A stretch of 64,000 nt of DNA, from positions 1 to 64,000 of the forward strand of contig JAIQEV010000006.1 of the NCBI GenBank assembly GCA_020073585.1, in the 5' to 3' direction. Both the position numbers and the translations under genes were made by a program. The notes beneath the pieces are model-generated. The model was not told where the DNA came from. It saw nothing but the letters and a program-made list of their open reading frames with translations, and searched no databases. Below are positions 5,455 to 64,000 of the stretch, in pieces. Position 1 is the stretch's first letter. Each line of letters starts with the position of its first letter. Source of the stretch: Terriglobia bacterium. GTDB lineage: Bacteria > Acidobacteriota > Terriglobia > Acidiferrales > UBA7541.

Positions 5455-5733
5455 ATGGCCACGCAGGCGGTCAAAGTGAAGAACGAAGAAGCGCAGGGCG
5501 GAATCGGCGGCGAGCTCGGGCAGAAGGTGACGGGCACGGTGCAGAACACGCGGGAATTTCTGCACGAAGTGCGCGTGGAGATGAAGCAGGTGACCTGGCC
5601 GACGCGCGATGACGTGGTGGCGACGACCGGCGTGGTGATCGGCACGGTATTCTTCTTCGGCGTGTTCCTGTGGCTCGTGGATATGGGCGTGCAGAACGCG
5701 GTGCAGTACGTGTTCAAACTGTTCGGAGTGTAG
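5455..5733 (+). CDS. secE: Preprotein translocase subunit SecE
   Basis: SecE is the small membrane clamp of the SecYEG channel. The 92-residue protein has a short charged N-terminus, the conserved amphipathic segment [19 protein letters not shown] (residues about 37-55), and one transmembrane helix ([22 protein letters not shown]). This is the single-helix form found in most bacteria. I use ATG 5455, preceded by AAGAGGCAGG; the frame is open 54 bases further upstream but without a better ribosome site. nusG follows after 16 bases. Confidence 0.95.
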
Positions 5734-5749
5734 AGGGGAACGCACGTTC

Positions 5750-6283
5750 ATGGCGATGCAGTGGTACATCATTCACACCTATTCCGGGTTTGAGAAGAAG
5801 GTGAAGGAAAGTCTGGAAGGGCGCGTAGCGGCGTTCGGGCTGCAGGACAAGATCGGGCGCGTGCTGATCCCGATGGAAGACGTCGTGGAAGTGCGCGGCG
5901 GGAAGAAAGTGCTTTCGGAGCGGATGTCCTATCCGGGCTACGTGCTGGTGGAGATGGACCTGGACGAGAACACCTGGCACGTGGTGCGGTCGACGCCGCG
6001 GGTGACGGGGTTCGTGGGATCGGCGACGAATCCCTCGCCGCTGAGCACCGAGGAAGTGGATGCGATCATCAATCGCGTGCACGTTCCGGCGGACCGCCCC
6101 AAGCCCAAGGTGATTTTCGAGCGCAACGAACAGGTGCGCATCGTGGACGGCCCGTTCGCGAATTTCAACGGCACAGTGGAGGAAGTGGATTCCGACCACA
6201 GCCGGCTCAAGGTTTCGGTGACGATTTTCGGGCGCTCGACGCCGGTGGAGCTGGATTTCGCGAGCGTGGAAAAGCTGGCGTAG
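5750..6283 (+). CDS. nusG: Transcription termination/antitermination factor NusG
   Basis: This 177-residue NusG binds RNA polymerase and couples it to Rho or the ribosome. The NGN domain begins [19 protein letters not shown] and includes the conserved [10 protein letters not shown] and TPRVTGFVG segments. The C-terminal KOW domain follows ([20 protein letters not shown]) and ends with [15 protein letters not shown]. An AGGGG ribosome site lies upstream. It sits in the secE-nusG-rplK order and is surely co-transcribed with both. Confidence 0.98.
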
Positions 6284-6316
6284 CAGGCGCGGGCCTGAGG
6301 GAGATCGAGGCGGGAC

Positions 6317-6745
6317 ATGGCGAAGAAAGTACAGACAACGGTGAAACTGCAGCTGGCGGCCGCGAAGGCCACGCCGGCGCCGCCGGTGGGCACGGCACTG
6401 GGCCCGCACGGCGTGAACATCATGGATTTCTGCAAGCAGTTCAACGCCAAGACGGCCAAAGAGCCGGAGGGCATGATCATCCCGGTGCTGGTGACCATCT
6501 ACACCGACCGGACGTTCACGTTCATCACCAAGACGCCGCCGGCCAGCGAGCTGCTGAAGCGCGCGGCGGGAGTGGTGAAGGGCTCGGCGGAGCCGAACCG
6601 CAACAAGGTCGGCAAGGTCAGCAAGAAGCAGGTGGAAGAAATCGCCAAGGCCAAGCTCGTGGACCTGAACACCACGAACCTGGAATCGGCCGTGCGCACG
6701 GTGATGGGCACGGCGCGGAACATGGGACTGGAAGTCACGGAATAA
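6317..6745 (+). CDS. rplK: 50S ribosomal protein L11
   Basis: L11 forms the base of the GTPase-associated stalk on 23S rRNA. The 142-residue length is typical. The N-terminal domain begins [40 protein letters not shown], with the Pro-rich hinge between domains. The rRNA-binding C-terminal domain includes [27 protein letters not shown] sequence provides the ribosome site. rplA follows after 28 bases; L11 and L1 are paired in nearly all bacteria. Confidence 0.97.
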
Positions 6746-8745: not shown

Positions 8746-13179
<4,434 letters not shown>

Positions 13180-53713: not shown

Positions 53714-56677
53714 TTACTGGTCCACGGGCGGCTCCGGTGCCGCGCCGGAAACGCCGCCGCCGCGCCCGGCGTAGATCGTGCGCGAGATCTTGTGCGGCAG
53801 GCGCAGGCGGTGCGGCGTGACGAGGATCAGCATCTCGGTTTCGCTCGGCCGTTTTTCCCGCGCTCCCGCCAGGTAGCCCGCGCCGGGCACGTTGGCGAAG
53901 CCCGGCAAGCCGCTGAGCGCGCGCGTCTCTTCCTTGTCCAGCAGGCCCCCGATCAGCGTCGCCTCGTCGTCGCGCACCCGGATGGTCTGGCTGATGGTGC
54001 GGTTGGAAAGAATGGGGATGCCGTTGACGCTCTGCCCCGAGCGCGAGCGAATCTCGAATTCCATCTGCAGCGTCACCTCCCCGTTGGGATGCAGAGCCGG
54101 CGTGGCTTTCACCTTCACGCCCAGATCCACGTATTCCGAAGCGGGGTAGGGCTGCTGCACAGCGCCCCCGGCGCCGCCGCCGAAGCTCACGGGATCGAAG
54201 ATGATGGACACCTGGTTGGCCGTGGCTTCGCTGAAGGCCGCATCCGGGCGCGCGTCATTATTGAAATCGGCGGCCACCACGGCGCTGGGGCCCGCGGCGG
54301 TGGGCAGCGCAAAGCGCGGCGCGAAGAGGCCCGCGCCCAGCCCCAGATGCACGCTGATCGTGTTCAGGCCCGCATTGGTCACCAGGAGATCGCCCGTGCC
54401 GTCGCTGTTGAAATCGGCGATGGCCACGCCCGAGGGCGCGGCGCCGGTGGCCAGCGGGGAATTGGTCGCGGCTTGAAAAGTCCCGTCGCCGTTGTTCAGC
54501 AGCACGGTGACGGAGTTGTCCGCCTGGTTCACGATGGCCAGGTCCGGGCGCGTATCGCCGTTGAGGTCTCCGGCGGCGAGGGCCACGGGCGTGGCGCCCA
54601 CGGCGATGGGCGAGCCGGACGCGGCGTGGAACGTCCCGTCGCCGTTGCCCAGCAAAATAGAAACGTTGTTGCTCGTGCGGTTGACCACCGCGAGATCCGC
54701 TTTGCCGTCGCCGTTGAAATCCGCGGTGCCCAGCGCCACGGGGCCCTGCTCGCCCCCGGGGAGCAGAAACGGCGAGCCGGGCGCGGCGCTGAAACCGCCC
54801 AGGCCGTTGCCCAGAAAAACGGAGACCGTGTTGTCGCTGAAATTGCTCACCGCGAAATCGCGCTTGCCGTCGCCGTTGAAGTCCCCGGTGACGATGGCGC
54901 TCGGCCCGTTGCCCGCGGCGATGGGCGAGGCCGCGGCGGGGGTGAACGTGCCGTCGCCCTTGCCGAGCAGCACGGTCACGTTGTTGGACGACTGATTGGC
55001 CACCACCAGGTCGGGGAGCGAGTCGCCGTTGAAGTCCCCGCTGGCGATGGCCGAAGCTCCGGTCTGGTTGGCGCCGAGCACGATGGGCGAACCGCTGGCC
55101 GCGCTGAAATTGCCGCTCCCGCGGTTGAGCAGGATGGTGACCGAACTATCGTTGTGGTTGGCCACCGCGAGGTCGCGCAGGCCGTCGGCGTTGAAGTCCG
55201 CGGCCACCAGCGCGAGCGGATCGTTGCCGGTGTTGAAATCGCTGCGCGGTAGGATGTTGGCCCCCAGCGCGGGTGTGAAGGAAGGCGTGCCCAGGCTGCT
55301 CGAGAGCAGCGCCAGCGTCACCGGAAAGCGGTCCCCCACGAAGAAGCTGGCGGGCTTGCCGTCCTGCGCGCGCAGCAGGATGCGCCGCCCGCTGCGCACC
55401 AGCGAGAGCGCCTGCGAAAATTGCGCCGCCGCGCCGGGCAGCGTTGTCAGCAGCGTGCTCTGGCCCCCGCCGAAGGCGATGAGCGGCGGCAGCAGGGCGC
55501 TGGCCCCGAGCTGTCCCGCGCTCACCAGCGAGGCGATCTGGCTCGCCGAGCCCCCCAGCGCGCCCTGCGCCCCGAAGATGCGCTGCAGGATGCCGATCAG
55601 CGTGGCCAGGTCGGGGGCCTGCTCCAGCGCGGTGATGTCACTGGGGCTCAGCGCGAAAACCCGCGTCGAGGAAGGCGGCGTGATGCCCAGCTTCAGCGCT
55701 TCGCTGCGGTTCACTTCCAGCAGCTCGATCTCCAGCAGCAACTCGCCGCGGGCCTGCTCCAGCTCGCGGATCAGCTCCCCGGCCAGGGCCACCACGCGCG
55801 GCGTGTCCCGGATCGTGATGGTGCGCCCGGCGGTATCCACCTGGCTGCGCGTGGCTCCCGCGATCTCCCGCAGCATGCGCTGCATCTCGGTCATCTCCTC
55901 GGGTGACGCGGAGGCGGGCAGAAGAAAAGTCTGCTCGATCTGCTGGTCGTACTCGCGGCGCTTGGCCGGGGTGTCGGCGGTGACGAAAAAAGTGTCCGCG
56001 GCCATGGGCCGCAGGAACGTGCCGGTCTGCGCCGCGACGATGCCCGCGACAGTGGGGAAGTCCACGTCGCTGAGCCGCAGGCGGACCGTGCGCGACGGCA
56101 GCTCGGGATCGAAGAGCGCCTTGAGGCCGAAGGCCTGCGCGATCTGCTGGTAGGCGTTCTGCGTGTCCCCGCGCAGATCGAAGCTGCGATTCCCGGCGCG
56201 CGGCTGCAGCCGGGCGGCTCCCGCGAAGCGCGGCTCGCCGGGCCCGGCGGGTTGCGCCTGCGGCGGCGCAGCCATGGCCGCGATCTGCGCCAGCCGCTCG
56301 GCGACGTTGCTGTTGCCGGGATCGAGCCGCAGCGCCGCGCGCAGTTCCGCCGTGGCCTGGTCCGCGCTGCCCGCCAGCGCCAGGCGCTCCGCATCGTCCA
56401 CGTGCCGGTGCACCAGCCGCGAGCGCAGCAGCGCGCCGCGCTCCAGCGCCGTGGTCTCCCGCGGGTCGCGCCGCGCCGCGGCGTCGTAGGCCGCCAGCGC
56501 CTCCTCGAAGCGCCCGGCAGCTTCGGCGCGTTTCCCGTCTTCCAGCAAGCGCTGCGCGCCCCGCGGATCGGGCCGCGCGGAGCCCTGCACCGCACTCTGC
56601 TGCCCTGCCGCCGGGCCGGAGCAGCCCAGCGCCAGCACCAGGAGTAGGGCGGCGGCGCGCTGGGAGAGACAAAGCAT
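53714..56677 (-). CDS. TPR-secretin with an internal seven-repeat FG-GAP propeller
   Basis: This is a 987-residue outer-membrane secretin. In order: a signal peptide with a possible lipobox-like LALGCS (Cys19), TPR repeats (about 40-130), STN/N-domain (about 160-240), an N1-type domain (about 247-305), and the start of the secretin domain (ARGELLLEIELLEVNRSEALKLGI, about 308 on). A block of seven repeats follows (about 490-825), each with DFNGDGxxDLAVVN-type Ca-binding loops at Asp494, 548, 599, 653, 704, 755 and 804. The secretin then resumes (EYVDLGVKVKATP, about 848 on) and ends in GGLLDKEETRALSGLPGFANVPGAGYL and TEMLILVTPHRLRL. Seven repeats fit a beta-propeller. No type II or type IV pilus genes are adjacent. 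ATG 56677 has no clear Shine-Dalgarno sequence. Confidence 0.9.
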   Translation of the reverse strand: MLCLSQRAAALLLVLALGCSGPAAGQQSAVQGSARPDPRGAQRLLEDGKRAEAAGRFEEALAAYDAAARRDPRETTALERGALLRSRLVHRHVDDAERLALAGSADQATAELRAALRLDPGNSNVAERLAQIAAMAAPPQAQPAGPGEPRFAGAARLQPRAGNRSFDLRGDTQNAYQQIAQAFGLKALFDPELPSRTVRLRLSDVDFPTVAGIVAAQTGTFLRPMAADTFFVTADTPAKRREYDQQIEQTFLLPASASPEEMTEMQRMLREIAGATRSQVDTAGRTITIRDTPRVVALAGELIRELEQARGELLLEIELLEVNRSEALKLGITPPSSTRVFALSPSDITALEQAPDLATLIGILQRIFGAQGALGGSASQIASLVSAGQLGASALLPPLIAFGGGQSTLLTTLPGAAAQFSQALSLVRSGRRILLRAQDGKPASFFVGDRFPVTLALLSSSLGTPSFTPALGANILPRSDFNTGNDPLALVAADFNADGLRDLAVANHNDSSVTILLNRGSGNFSAASGSPIVLGANQTGASAIASGDFNGDSLPDLVVANQSSNNVTVLLGKGDGTFTPAAASPIAAGNGPSAIVTGDFNGDGKRDFAVSNFSDNTVSVFLGNGLGGFSAAPGSPFLLPGGEQGPVALGTADFNGDGKADLAVVNRTSNNVSILLGNGDGTFHAASGSPIAVGATPVALAAGDLNGDTRPDLAIVNQADNSVTVLLNNGDGTFQAATNSPLATGAAPSGVAIADFNSDGTGDLLVTNAGLNTISVHLGLGAGLFAPRFALPTAAGPSAVVAADFNNDARPDAAFSEATANQVSIIFDPVSFGGGAGGAVQQPYPASEYVDLGVKVKATPALHPNGEVTLQMEFEIRSRSGQSVNGIPILSNRTISQTIRVRDDEATLIGGLLDKEETRALSGLPGFANVPGAGYLAGAREKRPSETEMLILVTPHRLRLPHKISRTIYAGRGGGVSGAAPEPPVDQ

Positions 56678-56720
56678 CGCCAATGATTGTAGCCTGATGG
56701 TGGGCAGGGCGGGAGTTGGC

Positions 56721-56749
56721 TTGACGGGGCCATTCCCGTCGCGTACACT
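56721..56749 (+). promoter_or_regulatory. Sigma-70 promoter of the FTR1 operon
   Basis: TTGACG (56721-56726) and TACACT (56744-56749) are exactly 17 bases apart. Transcription would start near 56756, about 33 bases before the GTG at 56789. Confidence 0.75.
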
Positions 56750-56761
56750 AAATTCCGTATT

Positions 56762-56783
56762 TGCAACTGAAGTGCAACTGGAG
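56762..56783 (+). repeat. Tandem 11-bp repeat in the FTR1 leader
   Basis: TGCAACTGAAG (56762-56772) is followed directly by TGCAACTGGAG (56773-56783). The second unit supplies the GGAG ribosome site. An 11-base period places both copies on the same DNA face, which would suit a regulator; no standard Fur box is seen. Confidence 0.6.
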
Positions 56784-56788
56784 ATCCG

Positions 56789-58060
56789 GTGTTCTCGGCC
56801 TTTCTCATTGCCCTCCGCGAGGGTGTTGAAGCCGCTCTCGTCGTGGGCATCGTTCTCGTCTACCTCTCGCGCACGGGACGCTCGCATCTCACCCGTTTCG
56901 TCTGGTCCGGCGTGGCCGCCGCGGCGGCCCTCAGCCTGGGCGTGGCCGCGGCCCTCGAGCGCTGGCAGGTCAGCCAGGACGGCTTCGAAGGCCTGCTGCT
57001 CCTGGTGGCCGCCTTCTTCGTGGTCACCATGATCGTCTGGATGAACCGCGTGGCCCGGCGCCTGAAAAAGCATATCGAAACGCGCGTCGAGTCCTATGCC
57101 GGGCGCGCGGGCCGCGCCGCCGGCTTGGGCCTGTTCCTCTTCGTATTTCTGATGGTGCTGCGCGAAGGCGCGGAGATGGCCCTGATCCTGCGCGCCGTCG
57201 AGCTCTCCACCGAGGGCCTGCAGATCTGGATCGGCACGCTCGCCGGAATCGCCGCCGCCGTGGCCGTGGGCCTGTTCTTCTTCCAGGGCACGCTGCGCGT
57301 GGCCTTGCCGCGTTTTTTTGCCGCCACCAGCCTGATCCTGATGCTGGTGGCCTTTCAACTCGGCCTGACCGGCCTGCACGAGCTGAGCGAGGCGCGCTGG
57401 CTGCCCTCCAGCAAGGGCGAGATGGCGCTGATCGGCCCGATCGTCCGCAACGACCTCTTCTTCTTCGTTTTCATTCTCGGCGCTGCGGCCCTGCTGGTTT
57501 TCCGCGAGTGGACCTCGCTGGCCCACGCCGCGGCCGCTGCGCAGCCCGCGCCCGCCGCCACTGAAGCCGAGCGCCGCCGCGGCGAATGGGAGCGCCGGCG
57601 CCAGCGCCGCTGGATGATGGCCGCGGCGTCCGCCTGCCTCGCGGTGATTCTGGCGCTGACCGCCGACTTCGTCTACGCCCGGGTGCATGCCGCGCCGCCG
57701 GCGGCGCGCGGCATCGAGGCGCGCGATGGGGAAGTGCGCGTCCCCATCGCCGAGGTCAATGACGGCAACCTGCATCTCTTCACCATCAAAATAGGCGGCA
57801 GCGCCCTGCGCTTTCTGGTGATCCGCAAGCCCAATGGCTGGGGCACGGCGCTGGACGCCTGCCGCATCTGCGGCGCCGCCGGCTACCGCCAGGACGGCCA
57901 GAACGTCATCTGCCGGCACTGCGCTTCGGCGATCTATATCCCGTCCATCGGCGACCAGGGCGGCTGCAATCCCATCGGCGTGCCCGCGCGCCTGGACGGC
58001 GCGGAGCTGGTCCTGAACGTCTCGTCGCTGACGGAAGCATTTCGCGAGGTTCCGCAGTAA
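56789..58060 (+). CDS. FTR1-family iron permease fused to a DUF2318 domain
   Basis: The 423-residue protein joins two modules. Residues 1-245 form an FTR1 permease of seven or so helices with both REGxE motifs (REGVE at 10-14 and REGAE at 125-129), the iron-binding pairs of this family. After a charged linker and another helix (about 276-292), residues about 305-420 match the DUF2318 pattern: Cys358-x-x-Cys361-Gly, Cys375-x-x-Cys378 and GGCNPIGV with Cys393. Related systems (Campylobacter P19, E. coli FetMP) pair FTR1 with a periplasmic iron-binding protein; none is seen here. GTG 56789 follows GGAG. The next three genes overlap or follow closely. Confidence 0.92.
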   Translation: MFSAFLIALREGVEAALVVGIVLVYLSRTGRSHLTRFVWSGVAAAAALSLGVAAALERWQVSQDGFEGLLLLVAAFFVVTMIVWMNRVARRLKKHIETRVESYAGRAGRAAGLGLFLFVFLMVLREGAEMALILRAVELSTEGLQIWIGTLAGIAAAVAVGLFFFQGTLRVALPRFFAATSLILMLVAFQLGLTGLHELSEARWLPSSKGEMALIGPIVRNDLFFFVFILGAAALLVFREWTSLAHAAAAAQPAPAATEAERRRGEWERRRQRRWMMAAASACLAVILALTADFVYARVHAAPPAARGIEARDGEVRVPIAEVNDGNLHLFTIKIGGSALRFLVIRKPNGWGTALDACRICGAAGYRQDGQNVICRHCASAIYIPSIGDQGGCNPIGVPARLDGAELVLNVSSLTEAFREVPQ

Positions 58061-58088
58061 ACTTGAGGCCGACCGCCAACGCGCTCCT

Positions 58089-59390
58089 ATGTTCCTTCGA
58101 CTCGTCGCCGACTCCTTCTCGCGCCGCTTGAGCCGCAAGCTCCTGACGGCGGGCGCCCTGGCTCTCGGCATGGCCGTGGCCACCGCGGCGCTGAGCGTCT
58201 CGCTGGACGTGGGCGACCGCCTGGCCAGGGAGTTCCGCAGCCTGGGCGCCAACCTGCTCCTCACCCCGCACGCCGATTCGCTGCCCCTGGAGATCGGCGG
58301 CGTGGACTACCGCCCCGCAAACGCCGGCGCGTATCTCCCCGCAGCCGACCTCCCCAAGCTCAAAACAGTTTTCTGGCGCCACAATATCGTGGGCTTCGCG
58401 CCCATCCTGGAAGTTCCGGTGGAGGCCTGGTCTGCCGCATCGCAAACGCCTCCCGCGCCGGGCGCCGCCGCCCGCGCGACGCTGATCGGCACCTGGTCGC
58501 AGCATGCCATTGCCGTTCCGGACGGCGGCACGTTTGTCACCGGGGTGGAAAAGACGAACCCCTGGTGGAACGCGGAACCCCGCTGGTTCGCCGAGAATGA
58601 GAAAGAGTGCGTCGTGGGCCAAGCCTTCGCGCGGCGCGCCGGCGTGCGCCTCGGAGACACGCTGCAAATCCGCGCCGGCGGCGAGACTCTCGCGCTCACG
58701 GTCAGCGGCCTGCTCACCACGGGCGGACCCGAGGATGAGGCCATCGTCGCGCCCCTGGCCCTGGCGCAGCAGCTCGCCGGCCAGCCGGGGATGTACCGCC
58801 GCCTGTATGTCAGCGCGCTGACCAAGCCCGAAGACGCCTTCGGGCGCCGCGATCCGAAATCCATGACCCCGGCGGAGTTCGACCGCTGGTTCTGCACACC
58901 CTATGTTTCCGCCATCGCCCTGCAAGTCGAGCAGGCGCTCCCCGGCACGGACGCGCGGGTAATCCGCCGCGTGGCCGAGGGCGAAGGGCGCGTCCTGACG
59001 CGCGTGCGCAACCTGCTGTGGCTGGTGGCCGCGGCGGCCTTGCTGGCCGCGGCGCTGGCCGTGGGCGCCACCTCCGCGGCGATGATCATCGAGCGGCGCA
59101 CCGAGATCGCCCTGATGAAGGCCCTGGGCGCGGGCTCTGGCATGGTCAAGAGCCTCTTCGCGGCGGAGCAGATCCTCCTGGCGCTGGTGGGCGGCGCGGC
59201 GGGTTACGCGATCGGAATCGTTCTCGCGCGCCTGCTCGGCCAGATCGTCTTCGGCGCGGCGCCCGAGCCTTCGGGCCTGGTGTTTGCGGTGGTGCTGGCG
59301 CTGGCCGTGGGCGTGACCCTGCTCGGCAGCTTTTTCTCCATGCGCCGCGCCGCGGCCTTTGAACCCGCGCCGATTCTGCGAGGCGAATGA
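58089..59390 (+). CDS. FtsX/MacB-like ABC permease (first)
   Basis: The 433-residue permease has an N-terminal helix (KLLTAGALALGMAVATAALSV), a large external domain (about 45-300) and three C-terminal helices. Between the first two lies the coupling segment SAAMIIERRTEIALMKALGAGSGMVKSLFAAEQILLALVGG, typical of FtsX/MacB-type permeases. It is 28 bases downstream of the FTR1 gene. Such permeases usually move substrate between the periplasm and beyond rather than across the inner membrane, or transmit mechanical force. The stop overlaps the next start by four bases (ATGA), so the two permeases are translationally coupled. Confidence 0.9.
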   Translation: MFLRLVADSFSRRLSRKLLTAGALALGMAVATAALSVSLDVGDRLAREFRSLGANLLLTPHADSLPLEIGGVDYRPANAGAYLPAADLPKLKTVFWRHNIVGFAPILEVPVEAWSAASQTPPAPGAAARATLIGTWSQHAIAVPDGGTFVTGVEKTNPWWNAEPRWFAENEKECVVGQAFARRAGVRLGDTLQIRAGGETLALTVSGLLTTGGPEDEAIVAPLALAQQLAGQPGMYRRLYVSALTKPEDAFGRRDPKSMTPAEFDRWFCTPYVSAIALQVEQALPGTDARVIRRVAEGEGRVLTRVRNLLWLVAAAALLAAALAVGATSAAMIIERRTEIALMKALGAGSGMVKSLFAAEQILLALVGGAAGYAIGIVLARLLGQIVFGAAPEPSGLVFAVVLALAVGVTLLGSFFSMRRAAAFEPAPILRGE

Positions 59391-60535
59391 TGTTCTGGCG
59401 GATTCTAAAACGGCTGTTGCAGGCCAATCGCGGGCGCCTGGTGACGGTATTGCTCGCTCTGGGTGCGGGCGCCGCGGTCACCGCCGCGCTGCTCAACCTC
59501 CAGGTGGACGCCGAAGAGCGTCTTACGCGCGAATTCCGGTCCTTCGGCGCCAACGTGGTGGTCGCGCCGCGCGCCGCCGAAGCGGGCGGCGGCGCGACGC
59601 TGGACGAGGCCGTGCTGCAGCGCGTGCCCCGGCAGTTCCAGAGCGCGCCGGTGGCCGCCGTGCCGTTTCTCTATCTGGTGGCCGACGTTTCCGATTCCGA
59701 CGCCGCGCTGCGCAAGGTCGTGCCCGCGGTGATCGCCGGGACCCAGCTCGAGGGCCTGGCCCGCGTCGGCCCCGGTTGGCGGATCGCGCCGGCGTCCCCG
59801 CTGGCCCTGGCCGGAGCGCACTGCCTGGTCGGTGCGCGGGTGGCGGCGCAATTCGCCGCGCGCCCCGGCGAAAAGCTGCTGCTGCGCTTGGACGGCCGGG
59901 AAGAGACATGCGTGGTCAGCGGGATCGTCTCCGCGGGCGGCACGGAAGATAACCAGGTCTTTGTGGATTTGACGGCGGCGCAGCGCCTGGCGGCCCAGCC
60001 CGGCCGCGTCAGCCTGATCCAGGTCAGCGTGGCGGGCACCCCGCAGGGCATCGAGAGTTTTCTGGGGCAGTTGGCCGCCGCGCTGCCGGGGGCCAGCGTG
60101 CGCGGGGTGCGGCAGTTCAGCGACGCCGAAGCGCGCCTCTACGAGCGCATCCGCGGCCTGCTGGTGGCCACCGTGGCGCTCATCCTGGTCCTCACCGGCC
60201 TGTGCGTGATGGCCGCCATGACCAACGCGGCCATGGAGCGCACCCACGACGTCGGTTTGATGAAGGCCCTGGGCGGCCCGGTGGACCGCGTGCTCCGCCT
60301 GTTCCTCGCCGAAGCGGCGATCCTCGGCGTGGCCGGAGGGATTCTCGGCGCGGCGGCGGGTATCGCCCTCTCCGTGTGGCTGGGCCAGGCGGTCTTCGGC
60401 GTGGCGGCGCGCCCGCGCCTGATTGTGTATCCTGTAAGCGTGGCTCTCACCATGCTGGTCGCCGTGGCCGGCGCGTTTCCGCTGCGCCGCCTGGCCAGCG
60501 TGAAGCCCGCCGACATTTTCCGGGGAGATTCATGA
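59387..60535 (+). CDS. FtsX/MacB-like ABC permease (second)
   Basis: The 382-residue permease has the same topology as its neighbour: one helix at about 17-37, an external domain, then three helices at the C-terminus with TNAAMERTHDVGLMKALGGPVDRVLRLFLAEAAILGVAGG. It shares the segment RLxREFRSxGAN with the first permease, so the two are old paralogues that probably form a heterodimer. It starts inside the stop of the first permease and its own stop overlaps the ATPase start (ATGA). Confidence 0.9.
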   Translation: MMFWRILKRLLQANRGRLVTVLLALGAGAAVTAALLNLQVDAEERLTREFRSFGANVVVAPRAAEAGGGATLDEAVLQRVPRQFQSAPVAAVPFLYLVADVSDSDAALRKVVPAVIAGTQLEGLARVGPGWRIAPASPLALAGAHCLVGARVAAQFAARPGEKLLLRLDGREETCVVSGIVSAGGTEDNQVFVDLTAAQRLAAQPGRVSLIQVSVAGTPQGIESFLGQLAAALPGASVRGVRQFSDAEARLYERIRGLLVATVALILVLTGLCVMAAMTNAAMERTHDVGLMKALGGPVDRVLRLFLAEAAILGVAGGILGAAAGIALSVWLGQAVFGVAARPRLIVYPVSVALTMLVAVAGAFPLRRLASVKPADIFRGDS

Positions 60536-61614
60536 GCGCGCAGGTGGTTGTCGAATCGCTGGTCAAACAATATGGGGTGCTGCGCGCGCTCGACGGCCTC
60601 ACTCTTTCCGTGGACCCCGGCGAGTGGATCGCCCTCATGGGCCCCTCCGGCTCCGGGAAGACCACGCTGATCAACATTCTCGGCGGCCTGGATATCCCGA
60701 CCTCCGGCCGCGTGGTGGTGGACGGCGTGGAAGTCTCGCGCCTCAGCGAATCGGAACTGGTGCGCTACCGCGCGGAGAAGGTCGGCTTCGTCTTCCAGCA
60801 ATTCCATCTCGTGCCCTATCTGACCGCGGTCGAAAACGTGATGCTGGCCCAGTATTTTCATAGCGTCACCGACGAGCGGCAGGCCGCCGAGGCTCTGCGC
60901 CGCGTCGGCCTCGGCGAGCGCCTCACGCATCTCCCCTCGCAGCTTTCCGGCGGCGAGCAGCAGCGCGTGGCCATCGCCCGCGCGCTCATCAACCAGCCCA
61001 AGCTCATCCTCGCCGACGAGCCCACCGGCAATCTCGACGAGGCCAACGAAAAAATCGTTATGGAAATTTTCCGCGAGCTGCACAGCGCCGGCCACACCAT
61101 CCTCATGGTCACCCACGACACGCTCATCGCCCGCGAAGCCGACCGCCGCATCGAGCTGGCGCACGGCCGCCTCGAGCAGATCTCCGCGCTCTCCGCCGAG
61201 GATCAGGACCGCTTCGATCATCTCCTCGAGCAGATCTGGGTTTGCGGCGAAGAGGGCACCGCCGCCAGCGTCGAGCGCATCCGCACTCCCGGCTCGGTGA
61301 ACCCCGTCAAAACTCTGGGCCGCCTCGTGGACTTGCACCTCGCCGAGATCCGCGGCTCCGAAGTGCGCCTCACCGAGCGCGGTAGCCGCCGCGCCCGCGA
61401 CGTCATCCGCCGCCACCGCCTGGCCGAGCGCCTCTTCAAGGACACTTTCGCCATCGCCGATTCCGAGGCCCACACCCAGGCCTGCAAATTCGAGCACATC
61501 ATCAGCCCCGAACTCGACCAGCGCATCTGCGCCTTCCTGGGCCATCCCAAGACCTGCCCCCACGGCAATCCCATCCCCCCGGGCGATTGTTGCCCGGAGA
61601 AATCCGCCAAGTAG
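60532..61614 (+). CDS. ABC transporter ATPase fused to a DtxR-type metal sensor
   Basis: The 360-residue protein has a complete MacB/LolD-type ATPase at 1-220: Walker A GPSGSGKT (37-44), Q-loop FVFQQF, signature LSGGEQQ (138-144), Walker B LILADEPTG (158-166) and H-loop His195. The frame then continues, without a stop or an in-frame start codon, into a DtxR-like domain (about 225-355). The six C-terminal ligands of DtxR align with the exact spacing: His295, Glu299, His314, Cys318, Glu321 and His322. His230 falls where DtxR has Met10. The helix-turn-helix part is about four residues shorter than in DtxR, so DNA binding is doubtful. ATGA overlap couples it to the permeases. Confidence 0.92.
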   Translation: MSAQVVVESLVKQYGVLRALDGLTLSVDPGEWIALMGPSGSGKTTLINILGGLDIPTSGRVVVDGVEVSRLSESELVRYRAEKVGFVFQQFHLVPYLTAVENVMLAQYFHSVTDERQAAEALRRVGLGERLTHLPSQLSGGEQQRVAIARALINQPKLILADEPTGNLDEANEKIVMEIFRELHSAGHTILMVTHDTLIAREADRRIELAHGRLEQISALSAEDQDRFDHLLEQIWVCGEEGTAASVERIRTPGSVNPVKTLGRLVDLHLAEIRGSEVRLTERGSRRARDVIRRHRLAERLFKDTFAIADSEAHTQACKFEHIISPELDQRICAFLGHPKTCPHGNPIPPGDCCPEKSAK

Positions 61615-61628
61615 GAGCCTGCGACCTC

Positions 61629-62015
61629 ATGCCCATCCCCCTCGACAGCCGCAAGAAGCCCGCCAGCGTGAAGATTCACGTCTCCACCGGCGCGGGCGTG
61701 GACATCGTCTGGGCCGACGGCCACCCCAGCCACTACGACTTCGCCTATCTCCGCGAGGAGTGCCCCTGCGCCTCCTGCAACGAGGAGCGCAACAAGAAAG
61801 CGGTCCTGGCGGGGTTCGCGGGCCCGTCGTCCTCGCCGCTGCTGCCCATGTACAAGCCCAAGCCCCGCGCGCAATCCGCGGTGCCCGTGGGCAACTACGC
61901 CATCCAGATCAGCTTCACCGACGGCCACGGCGCGGGCATCTTCAGCTACGACCACCTGCGCTCCATCTGCCCCTGCCCCGATTGCGCCCGCGAATTCCGC
62001 TCTCCCGGCGCCTAG
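61629..62015 (+). CDS. DUF971-family protein
   Basis: The 128-residue protein is the DUF971 (GBBH-like N-terminal) fold. It shows VDIVWADGHPSHYDFAYLREECPCASC at about 24-50 and a mirrored second half with ISFTDGHGAGIFSYDHLRSICPCPDCAREF. The two CPCxxC motifs (near residues 47-50 and 116-121) look like a metal or Fe-S site. In many bacteria DUF971 is linked to the Mrp/ApbC Fe-S carrier, which fits an operon about iron, but no mrp gene is seen here. ATG 61629 is 14 bases after the ATPase stop. Three tandem repeats begin at its own stop codon. Confidence 0.9.
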   Translation: MPIPLDSRKKPASVKIHVSTGAGVDIVWADGHPSHYDFAYLREECPCASCNEERNKKAVLAGFAGPSSSPLLPMYKPKPRAQSAVPVGNYAIQISFTDGHGAGIFSYDHLRSICPCPDCAREFRSPGA

Positions 62016-62142
62016 AAGCTCTCCCACAAATAGCGCAATGCCTAACCAACTTTTCTGCTGGAAGCTTTCTCACAACTAGCGCAATGCTTAACCAACTTTC
62101 TGCTGGAAGCTGTCTCACAAATAGTGCAACGCCTAATCAACA
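62015..62142 (+). repeat. Tandem 45-46-bp repeat, about 2.8 copies
   Basis: Units start at 62015, 62061 and 62106. Each has the words GAAGCTnTCnCACAA, TAGnGCAAnGC and TAAnCAAC, ending TTTCTGCTG in the first two. Unit length is 46 then 45 bases. The first unit starts at the last base of the DUF971 stop codon, so it is a 3'-flanking element. Confidence 0.8.
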
Positions 62143-62144
62143 CC

Positions 62145-62180
62145 GTCATTTCGAGCGCAGCGAGAAATCTCTCTTCGATT
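62145..62180. repeat. Dispersed repeat CGTCATTTCGAGCGCAGCGAGAAATC
   Basis: The sequence around 62145-62170 contains an inverted core (ATTTCGAGCGCAGCGAGAAAT, about 62149-62168) and resembles a REP-like element that I know from many unrelated bacterial genomes. No transposase is near it. It lies between the tandem repeat and the permease gene. Confidence 0.6.
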
Positions 62181-62305
62181 TCTTGTATTTGTGAGATCTG
62201 TTGCAGCCGTTCCTCTTGCGTCACTTGCCGCTCTTCCCCGGCGCTGGACAATCCCCGCGAAACATGGGAACATTTTTCCCCGCAACCTAGTGAATACTTT
62301 CTTTC

Positions 62306-64000
62306 ATGCCATCTGAACCTATCTCTCCCGGAGCTGCCGCGCAGCCCAGCAGCAACATTCCCCGCGTGCTCGTGGCCACCACGGCCATGCTCACTTTCAT
62401 CTCCTTCTGGCGTGCCGCGGCCATCGTCCTCAACGACCTCGCCTCCTCGGCCTACTACGCCGGCGGCGAAGCTGAAGGCTTCGTCGGCAAGTCCGCTCCG
62501 TGGTTCATTCTCGGCATCATGCTGTTTTCCTACGCCGTGCGCGCCATCTACGTCGAAAGCTCCAGCATGTTCGTGCGCGGCGGCGTCTACCGCGTGGTCA
62601 AGGAAGCCCTCGGCGGCACGCTCGCCAAGTTCTCAGTTTCCGCCCTGATGTTCGACTACATCCTCACCGGCCCGATCAGCGTCGTGGCCGCCGGGCAATA
62701 CCTGGTGGGGCTCACCAATGAGGTGCTGCCCTACGCGAATAGCCATCACCAGCTTCCCGAAAACAGCACCGCCGCGATGTTCGCGGTTCTCGTCACCCTC
62801 TATTTCTGGTGGCAGAACATCAAGGGCATCCCGGAGTCCAGCGACAAAGCCCTGAAGATCATGAAGCTGACGACCGTCATGGTCGTTCTGCTGATTGTCT
62901 GGTGCAGCTACACCGTCTGGTTGCGCCACCTGCACCTGCCGCCCTTCCCGAGCGTCCACAACATCCGTCTGGACAAGAATTCCATGGGCTGGCTCGACGG
63001 CGTCCATCTCGGCCGCCTGTTTACCCTGGTGGCCGTGTTTGTCGGCCTGGGTCACTCCGTGCTGGCCATGAGCGGCGAGGAGTCCCTCGCCCAGGTCTAC
63101 CGCGAAATCGAGCACCCCAAGCTCCCCAACCTCAAGAAGACCGGCCTGATCATCTTCCTCTACAGCCTCCTCTTCACCGGCCTGGTCTCCATCTTCGCGG
63201 TCATGATCATCCCCGACGCGCCGCGGCAGAAGTTTCTCGAGAATCTGATCGGCGGCCTGTCCATGTACCTGGAAGGCCCGCTGCTCCTGCGCCTCTTCTT
63301 CCACGGCTTCGTGGTGCTGGTGGGCGTGCTGATTCTTTCCGGCGCGGAAAATACCTCCATCGTGGGCGCCAACGGCGTGCTCAACCGCCTCTCCGAAGAT
63401 GGCGTGCTCCCGGACTGGTTCCGCCATCCCCACCGCCGCTTCGGCACCAGCCACCGCCTCATCAACATCATCGCCATCCTGCAGTTGACCACCATCGTCA
63501 TCAGCCGCGGCGACGTCACCTACCTGGCCAACCTCTATGCCTTCGGCGTCATCTGGAGCTTCGCCATGAAGGGCTTCGCGGTTCTGGTGCTGCGCTACAC
63601 GCACCCCGGCGATCGCGAATACCGCGTGCCCGGCAACTGGAAGATCGGCACTCTCGAACTCCCCGTCGGTCTCGCCTTCATCACCCTCACCCTGCTGCTC
63701 ATCGCCGTCGTGAACCTCTTCACCAAGCCCAGCGCCACCGTCGCGGGCCTCACCTTCTCCATCTTCCTCTTCACCGTCTTCACCGCTTCCGAGTACATGA
63801 CCCGCCAGCGCGGCACCCACCAGGCGGAGATGGACCAGTTCCACGTCACCACCCAGGACGAGCTGACCCCCCAGAGCGTCGGCGCGCGCCCCGGCAACAT
63901 CGTCGTGCCCGTCAGCAACTATCACTCCCTCTACCATCTCGGCAACGTTCTGGACCGCTTCAAGCCCGAGCGCCGCGACCTCGTCGTTCTCCACGTGCGC
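62306..64000 (+). CDS. APC-family permease with a C-terminal Usp-like domain (partial)
   Basis: The gene is open to the end of the window; at least 565 residues are encoded. From ATG 62306 a short hydrophilic N-terminus is followed by about 12 transmembrane helices. The APC-type start is seen in FISFWRAAAIVLNDLASSAYYAGG, with conserved MFDYILTGPISVVAAGQYLVG and a periplasmic segment GEESLAQVYREIEHPKLPNLKKTG. After the last helix the sequence turns soluble (about 510 on) and begins PGNIVVPVSNYHSLYHLGNVLDRFKPERRDLVVLHVR, the start of a universal-stress-type domain. Such APC-Usp proteins are known in several phyla. The substrate cannot be deduced. It has its own start, 290 bases after DUF971. 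Confidence 0.85.
   Translation, partial: MPSEPISPGAAAQPSSNIPRVLVATTAMLTFISFWRAAAIVLNDLASSAYYAGGEAEGFVGKSAPWFILGIMLFSYAVRAIYVESSSMFVRGGVYRVVKEALGGTLAKFSVSALMFDYILTGPISVVAAGQYLVGLTNEVLPYANSHHQLPENSTAAMFAVLVTLYFWWQNIKGIPESSDKALKIMKLTTVMVVLLIVWCSYTVWLRHLHLPPFPSVHNIRLDKNSMGWLDGVHLGRLFTLVAVFVGLGHSVLAMSGEESLAQVYREIEHPKLPNLKKTGLIIFLYSLLFTGLVSIFAVMIIPDAPRQKFLENLIGGLSMYLEGPLLLRLFFHGFVVLVGVLILSGAENTSIVGANGVLNRLSEDGVLPDWFRHPHRRFGTSHRLINIIAILQLTTIVISRGDVTYLANLYAFGVIWSFAMKGFAVLVLRYTHPGDREYRVPGNWKIGTLELPVGLAFITLTLLLIAVVNLFTKPSATVAGLTFSIFLFTVFTASEYMTRQRGTHQAEMDQFHVTTQDELTPQSVGARPGNIVVPVSNYHSLYHLGNVLDRFKPERRDLVVLHVR

Follow-up and report, generated by a model that had tools for sequence, protein, structure and literature searches.

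A DtxR-Derived Domain Appended to the ATPase of an FTR1-Associated ABC Complex in Acidobacteriota: A Candidate On-Board Iron Gauge

Why should the motor of a transporter carry the metal-sensing part of a repressor? The question is raised by a gene at positions 60532–61614 of a 64,000-nucleotide stretch of DNA (the window) from the Terriglobia bacterium contig JAIQEV010000006.1 (assembly GCA_020073585.1). It encodes an ATP-binding cassette (ABC) ATPase that runs in frame into a DtxR-like domain and closes an operon headed by an FTR1 iron permease. An earlier note, made from the sequence of the window, had proposed that an iron sensor is built into the motor. The protein is best explained as the ATPase of an FTR1-associated, FtsX-type ABC complex with an appended DtxR-derived domain. 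The domain probably serves to gauge Fe(II) from within the transporter and to slow the motor after translation, with Fur controlling the genes; we give this reading a probability of about 60%. The operon and the parts of the fusion are as follows (invariance refers to the 21 intact fusions and the stand-alone FeoB-type relatives described below; pLDDT is the predicted local distance difference test score).

56789–58060, + strand: FTR1 iron permease (residues 1–202; PF03239, 2.4e-38) and FtrD-like domain (residues 323–416; PF10080, 5.2e-23) in one protein
58089–59390, + strand: FtsX/MacB-type permease 1 (PF02687, 1e-13; PF12704, 1.6e-10)
59387–60535, + strand: FtsX-type permease 2 (PF02687, 1.6e-10), with a 4-base overlap with each neighbour
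60532–61614, + strand: ABC ATPase-DtxR fusion protein, 360 amino acids, last of the four genes
60532–61176, + strand: ABC ATPase domain, residues 1–215 (motif residues invariant in 21/21; AlphaFold2 blocks 1–210 at pLDDT 82–95)
61195–61254, + strand: first helix of the DtxR part, residues 222–241, with E233 invariant in 21/21 fusions and 35/35 FeoB-type relatives
61258–61356, + strand: degenerate helix-turn-helix (HTH) and wing, residues 243–275 (low identity; PF01325 barely matches)
61372–61593, + strand: DtxR metal-binding/dimerisation domain and Cys tail, residues 281–354 (Pfam match and invariant residues)

The fusion itself turned out to be real. The 360-residue frame has no internal stop, and Pfam places ABC_tran (PF00005) at residues 20–165 with E 1e-36 and Fe_dep_repr_C (PF02742) at residues 281–349 with E 1.2e-28, the latter domain being matched in all 21 fusions; the in-frame fusion that the earlier note had described is thereby borne out. 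Its claim that the N-terminal part holds every ATPase motif also stands, as the Walker A, Q-loop, signature, Walker B, D-loop and H-loop residues are invariant in 21/21 fusions. The DtxR-like nature of the C-terminal part was likewise confirmed: when residues 221–360 were compared with solved chains by phmmer, IdeR was matched at E 3.5e-18 and DtxR at 6.7e-14. In NCBIfam, LolD, MacB and FtsE rank at the top, the best 25 of 200 matches all lying under their cut-offs. The junction of the window protein (residues 209–246) contains no in-frame ATG, GTG or TTG, as had been stated. A sequencing frameshift or chimera can be rejected, since 20 further genomes have the same fusion in the same gene order. 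A separate DtxR product made from an internal ATG, GTG or TTG in the scanned linker is ruled out for the window and for L122, L126, L130, L133 and L135. The other 15 fusions do have in-frame linker starts, with GTG at one place in 8/21 and ATG, GTG or TTG at another in 9/21.

A search of 297 genomes of the same phylum with residues 195–360 gave a match at 1e-10 in 153 of them, from which 20 loci besides the window were chosen as having a long frame and a match extending into the ATPase part. The earlier note had suggested a search for proteins with both domains and their neighbours; this revealed an intact fusion in at least 21 of the 297 genomes, the window included, all 21 in the same operon. 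The phylum is probably Acidobacteriota as GTDB defines it, since a search around a genome named Aminicenantes yielded fusion matches in 10/149 genomes, with identical contig numbers and coordinates that hardly differ. FTR1-FtrD, FtsX, FtsX and ATPase-DtxR follow one another in this order on one strand in all 20 other loci, as they do in the window, although at L127 permease 1 is the best match of its second permease. Two PF02687 permeases lie directly upstream of the window ATPase, and two permeases are present in 20/20 fused relatives as well. Twenty further long frames were fetched around weaker DtxR matches, 17 from the same phylum plus G607, G913 and G988 from other phyla. In this subset of the long frames the LSGG motif is absent throughout, and no ATPase match is better than E 0.041. 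A 427-residue frame (G431/L196) was considered as a fusion and rejected, as it has no ABC match. The fusion was not seen at E 1e-20 in five other phyla (77, 148, 150, 148 and 194 genomes, centred on genomes titled Nitrospirae, Desulfovibrio, Gemmatimonadetes, Bacteroidetes and Spartobacteria), a search that a degenerate fusion like that at L212 would escape. No relative of the fusion was found in viral contigs, and the best 15 of 80 plasmid records are all annotated as stand-alone regulators.

The metal-binding part is where the family is most informative. In the window, all six residues that had been equated with the DtxR ligands stand at the places claimed. C318, E321 and H322 (DtxR C102, E105 and H106) are invariant in 21/21 fusions, and so is E299 (DtxR E83); one degenerate fusion, at L212, has lost the primary ligands. 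H295 (DtxR His79) is His in 16 and Gln in 5 of the 21. H314 (DtxR His98) is His in the window only, the family showing Glu in 17, Ala in 2 and Ser in 1. The ancillary set H79/E83/H98 is complete in the window alone, and the full two-site ligand set of DtxR, one of its histidines being unconserved, had to be given up as a family feature. E233, invariant in 21/21, stands at what we take to be the MntR E11 position, and residue 230 is Glu in 17, Asp in 2 and His in 2 of the 21. The mean pairwise identity of the 21 fusions is 0.65 for the metal domain and 0.66 for the ATPase: the metal domain is strongly constrained and equals the ATPase in conservation. A Cys in place of Glu at the DtxR C102 position goes with Fe rather than Mn. 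This residue and the operon favour Fe, and Mn no longer appears to be the equal candidate that the earlier note had made it.

Six further residues that the earlier note had passed over, C333, H338, C342, H344, C353 and C354, are also invariant in 21/21 fusions, and all of them except H338 in 35/35 FeoB-type relatives. In IdeR the places of C333, C342 and H344 are taken by Val, Ser and Phe, the compared IdeR stretch ending before the last two cysteines. This set is the ground for a different explanation, in which the Cys/His residues hold an Fe-S cluster or a second iron, and the domain is an iron acceptor, a chaperone or a sensor of oxygen or redox state, as FeoC is for FeoB, instead of a sensor of free Fe(II). 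Its precedent is FeoC, described as an Fe-S protein acting on FeoB (PMC10710835). We consider this explanation unlikely: the primary DtxR ligands are just as invariant, the explanation presumes that the cysteines converge and some of them could hold structural Zn, and the CPHG motif is found in two of 21 ordinary proteins too (L154, L256).

The DNA-reading part behaves differently from the metal domain. HTH residues 243–267 have a mean pairwise identity of 0.29 (median 0.17) in the 21 fusions, vs. 0.43 (median 0.37) in a control of 21 ordinary DtxR/MntR proteins, 20 of them hand-picked from the weaker same-phylum matches and one from the window's own genome; the metal domain of the control is at 0.56. 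At E 0.1, PF01325 recognises 20/21 ordinary proteins (best 1.9e-18), 4/36 FeoB-type relatives (best 0.0027, under the cut-off) and 1/21 fusions (E 0.097, not the window protein). HTH_27 gives a weak match in 1/21 fusions (E 0.018). The earlier note had taken a shortened HTH as speaking against DNA binding. The HTH is only about 3 residues shorter than that of IdeR; more telling are its poor conservation and the near failure of PF01325 to recognise it, which argue against a DNA-binding role shared by the fusions. Neither IdeR- nor MntR-like boxes were detected at p ≤0.05 in 35 upstream regions (21 fused, 14 unfused). The wing of six fusions, L133–L138, is interrupted by about 30 additional residues that include a His-rich stretch and, in 5/6 of them, NPCHD; this may be a further metal site.

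These data bear on the possibility of a tethered transcription factor, whose DtxR part still binds DNA, so that the ATPase doubles as the iron-dependent repressor of its operon and is perhaps released or recruited by the state of the transporter. DtxR homologues are repressors by default, the length of the winged helix is nearly kept, and the single PF01325 and HTH_27 matches show that weak similarity persists. Moreover, IdeR with a changed base-contact residue still binds DNA, according to one study (PMC8464063). The possibility nevertheless seems rather improbable given the PF01325 score of 1/21 fusions against 20/21 ordinary proteins, an HTH that is kept in ordinary DtxR and not in the fusions, the long wing insert in six of them, the lack of IdeR- or MntR-like boxes, and the presence of fur genes or Fur-like boxes.

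FTR1 has a fur-type gene as its immediate neighbour in 12/21 fused operons (L121–L132, divergent in L124), and four of these genes that were checked match PF01475 at 5.5e-29 or better. The upstream regions, up to 700 bases from FTR1, were scanned with the delta-proteobacterial Fur box WTGAAAATNATTTTCAW (consensus from PMC545781). A Fur-like box was obtained at p ≤0.05 in 18/21 fused operons and at p ≤0.01 in 14; with the E. coli Fur box, p ≤0.05 was reached in L120, L124 and L133–L138. All 21 fused operons show at least one of the two, fur gene or Fur-like box, and transcription therefore seems to be covered already. In none of the 14 unfused operons of genus g4, of the same class, was a Fur-like box detected; as these operons form one clade, the absence of box and domain counts as one correlated loss. 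Many of the g4 operons (L197–L202, L221–L228) share TTGACGACCAATTTAGT or a near copy about 115–150 bases before FTR1, which suggests a different control site or a promoter. A single Fur-family gene was found in the window's own genome, where FeoB_C gave no match, so the operon may be its main Fe(II) route. Two features precede the operon in the window.

56721–56749, + strand: promoter-like site TTGACG-17-TACACT (9/12 matches; the sole site in 56500–62400, with 0.4 expected)
56761–56777, strand not assigned: Fur-box-like dyad TTGCAACTGAAGTGCAA, closely following the promoter-like site (11/16 to the delta-proteobacterial Fur box)

The closest stand-alone relatives were sought among 40 non-fused DtxR loci: 20 of the same phylum (L139–L158), 13 of the G299 phylum (L177–L188, L196) and 7 of the G307 phylum (L189–L195). 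The tail motif [IV]CxxLxHPxxCxHxxxIPxGxCC appeared in 37/40, and in 32 of these 37 the gene immediately upstream, with the same orientation, matches FeoB. The 5 without FeoB in the locus all belong to the G307 phylum, and one of these lies close to the end of its contig. FeoB_N, Gate and FeoB_C were confirmed in each of the four FeoB query proteins, out of ten, that were checked. Most loci were picked as best matches to the fused domain, so the shared motif partly reflects how they were picked; the FeoB neighbour played no part in that selection. At ordinary DtxR loci, a FeoB match was found anywhere in 10 kb in only 1/21. FeoA (PF04023) is present in 36/36 motif-bearing proteins scanned, but also in 20/21 ordinary DtxR proteins, and FeoA alone is therefore no mark of the branch. 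In the FeoB-type relatives, HTH identity is 0.21 vs. 0.57 for the metal domain (35 rows, leaving out L154, L157, L158, L189 and L196; the 36-row set leaves out L154, L158, L189 and L196). Since the HTH is worn in these relatives too, the wear seems to be older than the fusion. The branch stands beside FeoB in two further phyla sampled. For Geobacter and Desulfuromonas, a 2004 regulon study shows an 'R' that follows feoB1 under Fur boxes (PMC545781); by our own reading this 'R' is possibly the DtxR-FeoA gene. At L158 (G125), positions 5551–6636 encode a DtxR metal domain and two FeoA stretches, with no HTH match and no Cys tail, and a partial FeoB match lies close downstream; is this a second kind of FeoB-linked DtxR?

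Taken more widely, a DtxR branch marked by this tail and a worn HTH may have given up transcription and turned into an iron gauge built into Fe(II) transporters. It would be carried on FeoA next to FeoB and, in Acidobacteriota, on the FTR1/FtsX ATPase, and would have gained a second site, for a metal or an Fe-S cluster, from its Cys/His set. We offer this as a tentative proposal, somewhat less probable than not. If it is true, the 'regulators' beside FeoB are transporter subunits.

The history of the domain was traced through its operon. An FtrD-like domain (PF10080) is present in 52/297 same-phylum genomes, and one stretch from each was inspected. These comprise 21 intact fusions, one fusion with degenerate ligands (G200, L212), 14 genomes of genus g4 in which FTR1-FtrD and both permeases go with an unfused ATPase (4 kb away from the rest in L224), 2 further unfused systems (L203 and L217), 6 short systems with no detectable FTR1, 4 systems cut by contig ends and 4 for which the inspected stretch gave no ATPase match. 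The 14 g4 ATPases stop 14–20 amino acids past the aligned ATPase. On an ATPase tree of 55 rows they cluster with six fused ATPases of the same class (support 99/97), which reads as domain loss in g4, and the 14 operons, being one clade, represent one event. On the best tree the fused/unfused label must change at least 5 times, and well-supported branches force 2 of these changes. That all 21 intact fusions form one clade is neither established nor rejected (p-AU 0.096). L212 is a very long branch on this tree; its fused ATPase-DtxR (9212–10243) has lost the C102/E105/H106-type ligands and kept CPHG, which suggests that the domain is degenerating or repurposed. The unfused operon ATPase of L217 (G291) ends with a tail containing CPNCGMNL, presumably akin to short heavy-metal-binding motifs; could this be another metal-binding tail on the same ATPase? 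The weakest explanation, a structural add-on that only dimerises ATPases or docks partners, its metal binding vestigial, is suggested by the overall conservation of the dimerisation domain, its loss in g4 and the lost ligands of L212, and is very doubtful as the residues of the site, beyond those of the core, are invariant in 21/21.

How would an on-board Fe(II) gauge work? A DtxR-derived domain would have been added to the C-terminus of the ATPase as a gauge of cytosolic Fe(II). At high cytosolic iron, Fe(II) would be bound at C318, E321 and H322 together with E233 and the acidic or His residue 230. The Fe(II)-bound domain would then dimerise, or repack across the two ATPase subunits, and change their contacts; so repacked, it would hold the motor in a low-activity state with a slower cycle. 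At low iron it would release the motor, and the transcription of the operon would be handled separately by Fur. Here we infer metal binding, the geometry of the dimer, inhibition rather than activation, the action of Fur at the boxes and the lack of DNA binding. For FTR1, the FtsX-type complex may drive periplasmic partners or import, the two being equally likely. The proposal of an iron sensor in the motor is strengthened by the constraint on the metal domain and not on the HTH, by the Fur genes and boxes and by kin carried on FeoA beside FeoB; the exact ligand set and the parity of Mn with Fe found no support.

Several points weigh against the gauge. The support comes from architecture, conservation and genomic context. 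H314 is no ligand of the family and H295 is replaced by Gln in 5/21. The domain is dispensable, as the 14 g4 operons, L203 and L217 do without it, and the one further fusion, L212, lacks the primary ligands. AlphaFold2, which modelled the ATPase well, gave pLDDT <50 for residues 216–360, where the sequences used provide no alignment depth, so the geometry of the dimer is conjectural. Given the linker starts, a separate shortened DtxR product may be made in part of the family, though not in the window. DNA binding that is specific to a lineage may persist despite the low HTH identity. IdeR reads much of its operator indirectly (PMC8464063). As for Fur, the window dyad at 56761–56777 is weak (11/16 to the delta-proteobacterial consensus, p 0.016 with 500 shuffles), stronger boxes being found in the relatives, and L121, L124 and L129 have no box at p 0.05, all three having a fur-type gene.

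In our judgement, much less is known of protein-level feedback on iron uptake in bacteria than of transcriptional control by Fur and DtxR. The fusion joins a metal sensor of a known kind covalently to the motor of a transporter, and a genus of the same class without the domain, g4, provides a natural comparison. The answer would bear on a gene beside FeoB that is usually taken for a transcriptional regulator.

A DUF971-like gene at 61629–62015, downstream of the fusion gene, lies outside the conserved unit, since as a query it gave no match in the 20 fused or the 20 other loci. Upstream, at about 53714–56700 on the minus strand, a long frame with repeats such as DFNADGLRDLAVANHNDSSVTILLN presumably encodes a secretin-like protein, its repeats being, we assume, of FG-GAP type.

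One of the nearest known systems is the FTR1/P19-type operon. The Campylobacter jejuni genes 1649–1655 code for FTR1, P19, a membrane protein, two ABC permeases, an ATPase and a thioredoxin-like protein, according to PMC6083913. Thirteen non-fused relatives were taken from 80 loci given by a pattern scan of genome contigs, which was dominated by the ATPase signature and gave ATPases lacking the DtxR domain; FTR1 is matched in 9/13 of them. The window operon has the composition of such systems, with FTR1, an FtrD-like domain, two FtsX-type permeases and an ATPase together, the ATPases being 55–63% identical (11 aligned). No P19 or thioredoxin match was found among six open reading frames scanned in 56789–64000, P19 having been searched for in this part of the genome only. 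Unlike these systems, the window has FTR1 and FtrD in one protein and an ATPase with a DtxR domain; across the 13 loci, DtxR is unmatched. A single frame holds FTR1 and the FtrD-like domain in the window and in the 20 fused loci, and the two are apart in the Campylobacter-type operons.

The regulatory domains of MetN and ModC have a fold different from that of the DtxR domain. To our knowledge, permeases of the FtsX/MacB type are not known as classical importers. MetN and ModC are subject to trans-inhibition, as PMC10710835 reports. Like them, the fusion has a regulatory domain behind a complete ABC ATPase, which apparently senses the transported nutrient; unlike the window complex, they are classical importers with a binding protein. 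The analogy drawn in the earlier note thus holds for the appended domain and is otherwise loose. Regulatory domains behind ABC ATPases are known; a literature search, made mostly without subscription papers, did not find a DtxR domain in that place, nor a DtxR branch that seems to have left DNA.

FeoC is a winged helix. As an Fe-S protein it controls FeoB at the protein level (PMC10710835), and like MetN and ModC it is a precedent for the gauge. A further precedent is a FeoA-FeoB fusion that hydrolyses GTP faster once FeoA is taken away (PMC8980893); the same study left DtxR-FeoA proteins out of its survey. With the DtxR, IdeR and MntR repressors, the fusion shares the PF02742 metal/dimer domain and the C102/E105/H106-type ligands; it differs in an HTH that is hardly recognised, in having no SH3 or FeoA domain, in the unconserved His98, and in its extra invariant Cys/His set and ATPase. 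The FeoB-linked DtxR-FeoA proteins are its closest stand-alone relatives, with the same Cys tail and the same worn HTH, and they have FeoA where the fusion has the ABC ATPase.

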